DNA from: Candidatus Wolfebacteria bacterium
Lineage (GTDB): Bacteria > Patescibacteriota > Minisyncoccia > Phycocordibacterales > EsbW-18
DNA length: 35,732 nucleotides
Direction: 5' to 3'
Assembly: GCA_022616195.1 (NCBI GenBank)
Contig: JAKEFG010000019.1
Span: 1-35,732, forward strand
Below the pieces are notes generated by a model that ran no database searches, was not told where the DNA came from, and saw only the letters and a program-made list of their open reading frames with translations. Of the stretch, positions 11,366 through 24,485 are shown one piece after another. A program made the position numbers and the translations under genes. Within the stretch, counting starts at the first letter, position 1. Each line of letters opens with the position of its first letter.

Positions 11366-11405
11366 AAATCCATTCTAAAATTCTATAGAATTTTAGAATG
11401 GATTT
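11366..11405. repeat. 40-bp perfect palindrome
   Basis: The left half AAATCCATTCTAAAATTC-TA is mirrored without a mismatch and without a spacer, with centre TATA at 11384-11387. There is no T-run, so it is not a normal terminator. It lies between the propeller/M23 gene and the rplJ promoter. Confidence 0.85.
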
Positions 11406-11448: not shown

Positions 11449-11480
11449 CTATTCCAATGTTCTTAAGAACATTGGAATAG
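11449..11480. repeat. 32-bp perfect palindrome
   Basis: CTATTCCAATGTTCTT is followed directly by its reverse complement. It lies 43 bases after the 40-bp palindrome and differs from it in sequence. Confidence 0.85.
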
Positions 11481-11511: not shown

Positions 11512-11539
11512 TTGCACTTTTGACGGAGAGGTGTAGTAT
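11512..11539 (+). promoter_or_regulatory. Promoter of the rplJ-rplL unit
   Basis: TTGCAC (11512-11517), 16-base spacer, TAGTAT (11534-11539). Transcription would start near 11546, at the beginning of the structured leader. Confidence 0.6.
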
Positions 11540-11545
11540 GGGGGT

Positions 11546-11640
11546 GAAGCCGAAGATATATAGGCAGCGGGAGAAAACCGCGGAGGTCCTATTGAGGTCG
11601 AGAGGGTCATCCCGCACGGCTTCGTCATAGCCGGTTTTTT
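11546..11640 (+). promoter_or_regulatory. Putative L10 leader with attenuator
   Basis: GAAGCCG (11546-11552) can pair with CGGCTTC (11617-11623) to close a multi-helix region that includes GCGG-GAGAAAA-CCGC. The same CGGCT can instead pair with AGCCG (11629-11633), followed by GTTTTTT: a short terminator. The two pairings exclude each other, as expected for attenuation by the L10-L12 complex. Known L10 leaders lie directly before rplJ; here a GIY-YIG gene intervenes. Confidence 0.5.
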
Positions 11641-11674
11641 AGTTAAATAAGAAGCGAAGCGACTATATTTAACT
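11641..11674 (+). repeat. Hairpin before the GIY-YIG guest element
   Basis: AGTTAAATA (11641-11649) pairs with TATTTAACT (11666-11674) around a 16-base loop containing GAAGCGAAGCGAC. It sits between the attenuator and the guest element. Confidence 0.55.
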
Positions 11675-11676
11675 TA

Positions 11677-11978
11677 ACCCAGCACCTTCTTGTTTTATGA
11701 CAGGTTTGTATCATGTCTACGTAATTCAGAGTAATCAGACAAAAGAACTCTACTTTGGATTTACTGGTGATATTGAGCAGAGAGTCAAGGAGCATAATGA
11801 GGGTAAGAACACCTCAACTGCTGAGCAACGTCCGTGGACACTGGTCTACTGCGAGTCATATCGTTCTGAAAGAGACGCGCGAAACCGCGAGCAGAAACTG
11901 AAACACTACGGTAACGCACGAACATACGTAAAGCGACGACTCACAAATGGTCTCTTGTAGGACAAGAAGGTGCTGGGT
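11677..11978 (+). mobile_element. Inverted-repeat-bracketed guest element (GIY-YIG)
   Basis: ACCCAGCACCTTCTTGT (11677-11693) and its exact complement ACAAGAAGGTGCTGGGT (11962-11978) bracket one ORF. The left arm ends three bases before the ATG and the right arm begins one base after the TAG. Element length is 302 bp. Two other guest ORFs in the operon have the same layout. Confidence 0.65.
11697..11960 (+). CDS. Small GIY-YIG nuclease-family protein
   Basis: An 87-residue single-domain protein of the YhbQ/URI type. The GIY part is YHVYVIQS and the YIG part is YFGFTGDIEQRVKEHN, with the catalytic Arg in RVKEHN and a Glu in NREQKLKHYG; the family consensus YxGxT is kept. Single-domain GIY-YIG proteins are often mobile or of unknown role and cut DNA with one metal-dependent site. 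It separates the rplJ leader from rplJ and is bracketed by 17-bp inverted repeats, which suggests an inserted unit and not a translation gene. No SD precedes it. Confidence 0.85.
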   Translation: MTGLYHVYVIQSNQTKELYFGFTGDIEQRVKEHNEGKNTSTAEQRPWTLVYCESYRSERDARNREQKLKHYGNARTYVKRRLTNGLL

Positions 11979-12018
11979 GCTCGAAAATTATAGTCATTAA
12001 CCCTCCTTACTTTTCGGC

Positions 12019-12504
12019 ATGGCGGTAACAAAACAAAAGAAACAGGAAGTAGTAGCAAAGCTCAAGGATATTCTCAGCAAGGCAGAATCAGTAACATTTG
12101 TAAATTTCCATGGCCTCGGTGTATCTGGAACTGCTCTCATGCGGAGTGCACTGAAGCAGGAAGGTGTTGGTTACATGGTTGCCAAGAAAACCCTTATCAA
12201 ACTTGCACTCGGTGGGGTGAAAGCGGAAGGTGACGTACCAGCTCTCCCTGGCGAGCTCGCCATTGCATACGGCGCGGAAACTGCCCCGGCGCGCGAGGTG
12301 TATGCGTTCCAGAAACGCTACGAGGACAAGGTTTCCATTCTAGGAGGCATTTTTGAGGGACGTTATCTGGACAAGGAAGCGATGCTTGCAATCGCCCAGA
12401 TCCCTTCGCTCCAAGTGCTCCGTGGTATGTTCGTAAACGTGATTAATAGTCCGATACAAGGACTTGCAGTAGCACTTAACGAAATAGCAAGAAGCAAAAA
12501 TTAA
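12019..12504 (+). CDS. rplJ: Ribosomal protein L10 (uL10)
   Basis: 161 residues. The N-terminal rRNA-binding domain is recognisable: MAVTKQKKQEVVAKLKDIL, then SVTFVNFHGLGV, the ALMRSALKQEG..YMVAKKTLIKLAL block and a C-terminal helix that holds L7/L12 dimers. It forms the base of the L12 stalk that recruits elongation factors. rplL follows after 30 bases. The ATG at 12019 has no SD. Probably autoregulated through the leader at 11546-11640. Confidence 0.95.
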   Translation: MAVTKQKKQEVVAKLKDILSKAESVTFVNFHGLGVSGTALMRSALKQEGVGYMVAKKTLIKLALGGVKAEGDVPALPGELAIAYGAETAPAREVYAFQKRYEDKVSILGGIFEGRYLDKEAMLAIAQIPSLQVLRGMFVNVINSPIQGLAVALNEIARSKN

Positions 12505-12534: not shown

Positions 12535-13026
12535 ATGAACGATACAGATAAAAAAGAAGAAATCAAAACAGCAGCGGTGCCTGCTCCGACGTCGCCGGAG
12601 GGCAAGTCGGAGTCCCGACCCGGGAGCGTCGGGACGGAGGAAAAAGAAGAGGTTGAAGTTCCGACAAAGTTCAAGAAGCTTGTTGAGGAGGTTGAGAATA
12701 TGAGCGTGCTTGAGCTCAACGAGCTTGTGAAAGTGTTTGAAAAAAAGTTCGGCGTCTCTGCACAAGCCGTAGCCGCGCCCGCCCAAGGCGGGTCCGCCTC
12801 TGGTGGAGAAGAGAAAAGCACTTTCAACGTGGAACTCACCGGTGCGGGTGCGAACAAAATCGCCGTAATCAAGGTGGTGAAGGAAGCGGCGGGACTCGGC
12901 TTGAAAGAAGCGAAGGACTTGGTTGAAAGTGCTCCAGCGATGGTAAAAGAAGGTCTCAAGAAAGAAGATGCCGACGCTCTGAAGGCAAAACTTGAAGAAG
13001 CAGGTGCTCAGGTGACTCTTAAATAA
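12535..13026 (+). CDS. rplL: Ribosomal protein L7/L12 (bL12) with an N-terminal extension
   Basis: 163 residues against the usual 120-130. The dimerisation helices begin near residue 44 ([20 protein letters not shown]), the Ala/Gly-rich hinge is [13 protein letters not shown], and the C-terminal factor-binding domain has [20 protein letters not shown]. The first ~42 residues are extra and largely charged. Part of them (residues 17-33) is encoded by a tandem-hairpin repeat (12584-12634) also found in rpsJ and rplC. Multiple copies form the ribosomal stalk that stimulates factor GTPases. Confidence 0.95.
12584..12634 (+). repeat. In-frame tandem-hairpin element, rplL copy
   Basis: Hairpin A: CTCCGAC (12584-12590), bulged G, partly paired inner stem, GTCGGAG (12606-12612). 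Hairpin B: TCCCGAC (12613-12619), short loop, GTCGGGA (12628-12634). It is 51 bases and in frame. The T and A in hairpin A pair with each other where the other copies have C and G. Confidence 0.7.
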
Positions 13027-14662: not shown

Positions 14663-14708
14663 CCAGCACCGTTTTGCCTACTAGGCAAAACGGTGCTGGC
14701 TTGCTTTT
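14663..14708. terminator. Strong bidirectional-type terminator
   Basis: CCAGCACCGTTTTGCC (14663-14678), loop TACTA, exact complement (14684-14699): a 16-bp stem. CTTGCTTTT follows on the plus strand, and GTGTTTTTGG on the minus strand. Confidence 0.85.
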
Positions 14709-22581: not shown

Positions 22582-22987
22582 TTAGTTTATTAGTTTATGG
22601 CATCGGAGCTTGAGAATCTGAAGATTTACCAAATGGCGAGTGCACTTGAACTGGAAGTATATAAATCAACAAAATCATTTCCCGGGGACGAAAAATACAG
22701 AAGTATAGACCAGTTGCGTCGTTCTTCAGCATCGGTTACAAATAATATCGCCGAATCGTACGAAAAACGATCGCTTAAAGAGAGGGTGTATATTTGGGGG
22801 GATATTGTTAAAGGCGAGGCACAGGAAACAAAGAACGGATTGATGATGGCCTTACAAAAAGGATTTCACGACAATAAAGATGTTATTGACAGATACACAG
22901 AACTACTCAAAGCCGTCAGTGGGTACATTCGTTTTCTCAAAACTAACAGCGAGCATAGTGAGCGGAACCAATAAACTAATAAACTAA
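22582..22987 (+). mobile_element. Inverted-repeat-bracketed guest element (four-helix bundle 1)
   Basis: TTAGTTTATTAGTTTAT (22582-22598) and its exact complement (22971-22987), 17 bp, bracket one ORF. The left arm includes the first two bases of the guest ATG. The right arm includes its TAA, and the rplN GTG begins one base later. Element length is 406 bp. This is seen directly; mobility is inferred. Confidence 0.7.
22597..22974 (+). CDS. Four-helix-bundle protein of the 23S rRNA intervening-sequence family
   Basis: 125 residues, all helical. The diagnostic pattern is LRRSSASVTNNIAESYEKRS in the middle (family form xQ(L/M)RRSSxSxxxNIAEG), preceded by LKIYQMASALELEVYKSTKSFP and followed by GEAQETKNGL and a last long helix. 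These proteins (TIGR02436, S23) were first seen inside intervening sequences of 23S rRNA genes whose ends pair and are cut out of the rRNA. Their function is unknown. Here it is inserted between rpsQ and rplN and bracketed by inverted repeats. Confidence 0.85.
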   Translation: MASELENLKIYQMASALELEVYKSTKSFPGDEKYRSIDQLRRSSASVTNNIAESYEKRSLKERVYIWGDIVKGEAQETKNGLMMALQKGFHDNKDVIDRYTELLKAVSGYIRFLKTNSEHSERNQ

Positions 22988-23592: not shown

Positions 23593-23621
23593 GCAGAGCG
23601 AGCGACTAGGGTTTTCAGGAT

Positions 23622-23672
23622 CCAGCCCTTATTTTTCAAGTTGTTTTATTCAATTCAGAAAATAAGGGCTGG
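23622..23672 (+). repeat. ORF-less inverted repeat between rplX and rplE
   Basis: CCAGCCCTTATTTT (23622-23635) and its exact complement (23659-23672), separated by 23 bases. It resembles the guest-element repeats but holds no gene; it could be a remnant, a processing site or an inefficient terminator. Confidence 0.6.
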
Positions 23673-23720
23673 GTGGTGATTGTTTCTAAGTTCGTGTACA
23701 CTCACTAAGAAAAATCAACC

Positions 23721-24313: not shown

Positions 24314-24485
24314 ACCCCGTTGGGGCATTATTACGCTGTGGAATGGCACCACAGCCCCATTTTTACCTGTTGGGTCGTGTCATTTCGGTGTGGTGTTGAT
24401 TCAAGCCACCGAGCACTTTGGACTCACCAGTAAAAATGGAGCTGGATGCTCATTTTTGCAGTTGTTCACCAGTTCGCAAGCAAAA
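24314..24485 (+). promoter_or_regulatory. Structured rpsN leader with an attenuator-like hairpin
   Basis: CCCC-GTT-GGGG at the start competes with pairing of that GGGG to the CCCC after GCTGTGG-AATGGCA-CCACAGC (24335-24355). That hairpin is followed by CCCATTTTT, a terminator-like arrangement. A second hairpin AAAAATGGAGC/GCTCATTTTT lies near 24433-24458. The frame of rpsN is open through the leader from an ATG at 24306, which coincides with the -10 region and so is not a likely start. Confidence 0.5.

Follow-up and report, generated by a model that had tools for sequence, protein, structure and literature searches.

Positions 11677-11978 of the DNA analysed here are probably a copy of a family of mobile mini-elements of Patescibacteria, about 300 bp long and with a GIY-YIG nuclease gene as their only gene, and sequence comparison together with modelled RNA folding suggests that this copy is tolerated in front of rplJ because its arms and an outer stem pack up the insert without altering the fold of the leader. 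As judged from the sequences, members of the family would carry terminal inverted repeats (IRs) of about 16-23 nt around a single small nuclease gene with intact catalytic residues, and the family is apparently widespread in the phylum and undescribed. The window, by which we mean the whole stretch of 35,732 nucleotides, is contig C9 of a 631-kb genome that is 98% complete. The named relatives from our searches were mostly CPR/Patescibacteria, e.g. Wolfebacteria and Harrisonbacteria.

The insert between the L10 leader and rplJ

A sequence-only reading of this DNA had placed a GIY-YIG element of 302 bp with exact 17-bp ends between a putative L10 leader with attenuator and rplJ, and this arrangement was recovered in our analysis, with the leader model matching at 11542-11602 and rplJ running from 12019. 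The relevant features of the window are the following.

11542..11602, + strand: L10 leader core (ATAGGC...GTCCTATTGAGGTCGA); 25 bits (E 6.6e-5) with a covariance model of 15 relatives
11617..11640, + strand: attenuator-like terminator hairpin (11617-11633) and T-run; pattern scan, same place in the leaders of relatives
11661..11667, + strand: GACTATA, left arm of outer stem; predicted partner 11989-11995 (probability 0.75-0.97)
11677..11693, + strand: left inverted repeat ACCCAGCACCTTCTTGT; 17/17 complementary to 11962-11978
11697..11960, + strand: GIY-YIG nuclease ORF, 87 aa, ATG to TAG; Pfam PF01541, 53 bits, E 4e-14
11962..11978, + strand: right inverted repeat ACAAGAAGGTGCTGGGT; 17/17 complementary to 11677-11693
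11989..11995, + strand: right arm of outer stem, TATAGTC; pairs with 11661-11667
12019..12504, + strand: rplJ (ribosomal protein L10); PF00466, 62 bits
12535..13026, + strand: rplL (ribosomal protein L7/L12); PF00542, PF16320
22597-22974: ORF of a 23S rRNA IVP protein, 125 aa; PF05635, 73 bits

The arms of the 302-base insert are complementary at all 17 positions and enclose 268 nt. With its PF01541 domain and the catalytic Tyr, Arg and Glu, the encoded protein belongs to the GIY-YIG nuclease superfamily. The catalytic residues Y8, Y19, G21, R29, H33, E65 and K69 are all found in the window copy and are 97-100% conserved in 155 related proteins, and the solved structures nearest by sequence are UPF0213 or single-domain GIY-YIG proteins (PDB 1zg2 and 1ywl, E 6e-6).

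Rfam's own L10_leader model (RF00557) matches the leaders of relatives weakly and did not detect the window leader either at the gathering score or at E<=5, where chance matches only were returned. Therefore an order-specific model was built from the relatives. Its only match in the window is the segment 11542-11602, which places a conserved L10-binding core before rplJ, as is expected of an L10 leader. The leader stem has changed on both sides, from GTAGG/CCTAC in the nearest relative (L020) to ATAGG/CCTAT in the window. Most relatives have about 80-230 nt between the leader core and the rplJ ATG; where an element follows the attenuator, in three genomes (window, L023 and L031), this distance is 445-465 nt.

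It had also been suggested that pairing of the arms would bring the leader and the rplJ start close together again, and the computed fold of 11520-12060 is in agreement with this: the arms pair in the predicted transcript with a probability of 0.98-1.0, and the outer 7-bp stem (11661-11667/11989-11995) is predicted to close the insert with a probability of 0.75-0.97. When the leader was folded with the element and as the flanks-joined sequence, the pair probabilities were alike (r = 0.98), and the region folds better than all shuffles (z -4.0). According to these models the insert is folded away as a closed stem with the leader fold unchanged, so that control of rplJ can survive.

Within the order, 148 genomes were searched with L10, and rplJ was present in 136 of them. 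A GIY-YIG gene lies directly upstream of rplJ in at least three of the 136 (G000, G034 and G047), a count that is a lower bound since the nuclease matches were taken at a cut-off of E<=1e-14; one further case (G199) came from the nuclease search. The gene is absent 5' of rplJ in nearly all relatives compared, which upholds the earlier view of the nuclease as an insertion. It follows the attenuator in the window, G034 and G199, and precedes the leader in G047, where it is flanked by TTGAC duplicates. The IRs are ACCCAGCACC in the window and in G034 (with a diverged left side in the latter), TCACTCGAAAATTAATT in G199 and ACCCCCACACC in G047, and since they differ, the rplJ 5' region has probably been invaded repeatedly and not once. 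No closely related empty rplJ allele was found in the genus (one genome) or the family (three genomes, nearest family rplJ protein 58% identical), which counts against the mini-element reading.

Two perfect loop-less palindromes (20+20 and 16+16 nt) were seen just 5' of the L10 leader, at 11366-11405 and 11449-11480, and a palindromic GTCCCGAC...GTCGGGAC repeat at 12612-12635 lies within the N-terminal extension of rplL. Palindromes similar to the latter occur in tRNA fragments near other GIY-YIG genes (L006).

A family of GIY-YIG genes between inverted repeats

From the order and related contigs we collected 162 distinct related GIY-YIG genes (161 of them in the IR counts), chosen by similarity to the window protein; the genomes were binned from metagenomes and may contain some false assembly joins. 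Because ungapped arms undercount the repeats, a gapped score (>=11) was adopted, and by this measure flanking IRs are present at 111 of 161 genes (69%) compared with 26 of 687 control ORFs (3.8%). Perfect ungapped arms of at least 11 nt were found for 54% of the GIY-YIG genes and 1.7% of 535 similarly sized ORFs taken from the same loci, and arms of at least 15 nt for 33% and 0.2%, respectively. Together with the 17/17 match in the window, this gives the family the terminal inverted repeats of a TIR transposon or insertion sequence. Among 28 phylum-wide loci with relatives of the nuclease, 12 have IRs. About 31% of the family is without a detectable IR, and 28 of these 50 genes adjoin tRNA genes, a point that we count against the mini-element reading.

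Tips are shared within subfamilies (CCCAGCAC, CCCCTCAC, CCCCACAC, CCGCACAC, CCCGTTAGA and others). In the most variable subfamilies the inner arm positions agree to about 100% within a copy and to about 20-55% between copies; the start-codon clade is an exception, with arms that match over about 12 nt only. Arm mismatches comprise 8 G-U, 4 A-C and 4 others, counts by which selection on RNA and on DNA are not told apart. On the nuclease tree the IR type changes 19 times against a shuffled mean of 76 (69-83), and the host family 98 times against a shuffled mean of 110 (minimum 103), so the nuclease and its repeat type move as a pair, for the most part independently of the host lineage.

A sister copy with the same 10-nt tip lies before a pilin gene in the window's own genome, and here nuclease and prepilin leader form one reading frame (227 aa, with GIY-YIG and N_methyl domains). 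Copies of 40-125 nt that lack the ORF have the same tips as full copies, several of them with duplications (L041, L034, L054, L055, L135 and others), and they are of the kind known as non-autonomous derivatives of TIR transposons and insertion sequences. Annotated phages and plasmids gave no close relative of the nuclease (one weak phage match). Across the phylum, 93 of 380 genomes (about a quarter) have a close relative, and for this reason the mini-elements may be among the commonest mobile elements of the phylum, possibly annotated as stray GIY-YIG genes.

The outer repeat GCGAAGCGACTATA was tried as a feature of the window's own genome and rejected, being no commoner there than the reversed control (7 versus 5).

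Landing sites, orientation and target duplications

The family has many landing sites besides the rplJ 5'UTR. Copies were found at tRNA 5' ends, in 16S, 23S and RNase P RNA, in 5'UTRs (rplJ, rpsN in L054/L055 and a nusA-like gene in L032), in a pilin gene and at start codons; the rRNA copies were identified by conserved motifs only, and the RNase P RNA hosts were confirmed with RF00010. Relative to the host RNA, 62 copies are in sense and 2 in antisense orientation (tRNA 43:2, 16S 6:0, 23S 8:0, RNase P 5:0).

Of 87 copies, 33 are bordered on the outside by direct repeats of 4-9 nt, compared with about 2.5% of swapped pairs; many relatives have target duplications of about 5 nt, and many others show none. 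No duplication is visible at the window copy, and the copies in rRNA and RNase P RNA are also without them, both of which count against the mini-element reading; the window copy may be old or may have inserted by a different route. A host ATG stands exactly at the right tip of 31 of 111 IR copies compared with 62 of 1624 controls. In 26 of these 31 a start codon is repeated at the left tip, and in 14-15 copies the nuclease TGA overlaps the host ATG as ATGA.

RNase P RNA is intact in G056 (356 nt) and interrupted in its congeners G124 and G205 (607-638 nt); G056 and G124 share about 78-85% identity in the flanking sequence, and the RNase P RNA of another congener, G260, also carries the element.

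In the RNase P RNA of G305 (L141) a GIY-YIG element was observed in the 5' part, just before the conserved AGGAAAGTCCG. The RNase P RNAs of G056 and G305 (L243, L244) further contain the hairpin CCGAGCACCAGCAATGGTGCTCGG, or a near-identical one, two or three times, in different helices. These hairpins share their tip with a GIY-YIG subfamily and are possible minimal remnants; most of the micro-hairpins seen with such tips came from the RNase P RNA of a single genus, and their total number was not above the control.

Beside tRNA genes of the window's own genome there are GIY-YIG genes without clear IRs (L007, L006 and L004). They are preceded by a degenerate copy of the 5' half of the tRNA and followed by an intact tRNA, and L004 sits within a second tRNA-Gln that is interrupted.

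Mode of insertion and alternative explanations

At rplJ the element would have entered the 5'UTR in sense orientation, downstream of the attenuator and ahead of the start codon. We suggest that insertion and spread of the element are driven by a staggered cut that the nuclease places at a short target, which could be a tip-like G/C-rich sequence, a hairpin or a start codon; the proposal is drawn from the duplications, the coupling of nuclease lineage and IR type, and the catalytic conservation. The stem might then be the reason why copies persist in sense orientation only, inside structured RNAs and at 5' ends. A more far-reaching version, to which we give about an even chance, is a class of DNA transposons in which a single-domain GIY-YIG nuclease acts as the transposase and inserts the element at tip-like targets with a 5-nt stagger, with clades specialised for start codons (ATG duplicated, nuclease TGA overlapping the host ATG as ATGA), tRNA 5' ends, or rRNA and RNase P helices, the host gene being left working each time. 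We know of no GIY-YIG transposase, which we count against the mini-element reading, and to our knowledge no insertion-sequence family has a GIY-YIG enzyme. If the reading is true, a selfish element enters essential genes (tRNA, rRNA, RNase P RNA, ribosomal protein operons and start codons) at little cost, and GIY-YIG enzymes gain a transposase-like role.

In their terminal inverted repeats, short target duplications, one ORF and ORF-less derivatives the elements resemble insertion sequences and MITEs. They differ in having a GIY-YIG nuclease and not a DDE, HUH, serine or tyrosine transposase, in their strict sense orientation, and in inner arms that are perfect but copy-specific. With group I introns and free-standing homing genes of the I-TevI type they share the GIY-YIG catalytic domain and insertion in rRNA and tRNA, but they are without intron structure, have no separate DNA-binding region in their about 87 aa, and combine IR ends with unrelated sites. 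Tsurumaki et al. 2024 (PMC11270868) describe CPR rRNA genes in which less conserved sites are occupied by non-intron inserts with small GIY-YIG ORFs, and the rRNA copies found here very probably belong to that set. The text available of that study treats rRNA genes only, with inverted repeats and tRNA sites unmentioned, whereas the elements described here also occur in tRNA, RNase P RNA, 5'UTRs and start codons and have terminal repeats, 5-nt duplications and ORF-less derivatives. Our reading, if true, would explain these non-intron insertions, which had earlier been set apart from homing. A literature search returned no paper that pairs GIY-YIG with inverted repeats or target duplications in Patescibacteria, most subscription journals and preprints lying outside its coverage.

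The strict sense orientation of copies in rRNA and RNase P RNA helices would also be expected if the insert were an RNA hairpin of the IVS type, with a stem kept by RNA selection, either for cleavage by RNase III or for extension of a helix, and with the GIY-YIG gene as a passenger or a separate acquisition. The same window holds an IR-flanked 23S rRNA IVP gene, and GIY-YIG and 23S_rRNA_IVP ORFs both occur in the non-intron CPR rRNA insertions of PMC11270868. Like a 23S rRNA IVS with IVP (PF05635), the elements place an IR-flanked ORF in sense orientation in a structured host transcript, and the window copy is an IR-closed insert in its host RNA with a predicted stem probability of about 1. 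Unlike it, they have a different protein, many non-23S hosts and target duplications, and the window copy itself lies in the rplJ 5'UTR and not in a 23S rRNA gene. The duplications at start codons and tRNAs, the coupling of nuclease lineage to IR type and the conserved catalytic residues suggest that the nuclease is part of the mobile unit, and we regard the hairpin explanation as unlikely.

Less likely still is classical homing, to which the earlier reading pointed with its remark on the spread of GIY-YIG nucleases as homing-type genes; the enzyme would cut alleles that lack the insert, and homologous recombination would then spread its gene. Such a role is classic for GIY-YIG enzymes, and several sites do recur across distant genomes (a 23S H63-like site, a 16S site and an RNase P helix). 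Against this, the window has no intron family match at the Rfam gathering score and no plausible one at E<=5 around the element; the lineages do not keep to one conserved allelic site each, as one subfamily is found at the unrelated sites rplJ, pilin, rpsN and 16S and one clade at the start codons of many unrelated genes, which have no more than about 5 nt in common. IRs and ORF-less copies are foreign to homing genes, and with the 5-nt target duplications they fit a transposon-type element and not allelic homing; PMC11270868 likewise judges that GIY-YIG ORFs in rRNA are not a case of homing. A conserved gene for regulation of the L10 operon, which the four rplJ loci of the order with an upstream GIY-YIG gene (window, G034, G199 and G047) might bring to mind, is very improbable: the gene was found in at least 3 of 136 relatives with rplJ, a comparison that already contradicts it, and the four copies differ in IR type and in position (three after the attenuator, one before the leader). 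That the repeats arose by chance deserves hardly any credence, given perfect 17-nt arms where 0.2% of control ORFs reach 15 nt or more, and a tip shared with the sister copy in the same genome.

The IVP ORF of the window lies between the exact 17-nt inverted repeats TTAGTTTATTAGTTTAT/ATAAACTAATAAACTAA (span 22582-22987), directly before rplN (L14) and in sense orientation. ORF-less hairpins are present at 23615-23679 and 24330-24470 (rplE and rpsN). The one upstream of rplE (L5) has a CCAGCCC tip, and the one upstream of rpsN (S14) is a degenerate copy of the right end of the CCCAGCAC family, in the same place where L054/L055 have full GIY-YIG copies. A perfect hairpin CCAGCACCGTTTTGCCTA-c-TAGGCAAAACGGTGCTGG at 14663-14699 has the tip of the rplJ element and could be either a terminator or a copy that lacks the ORF.
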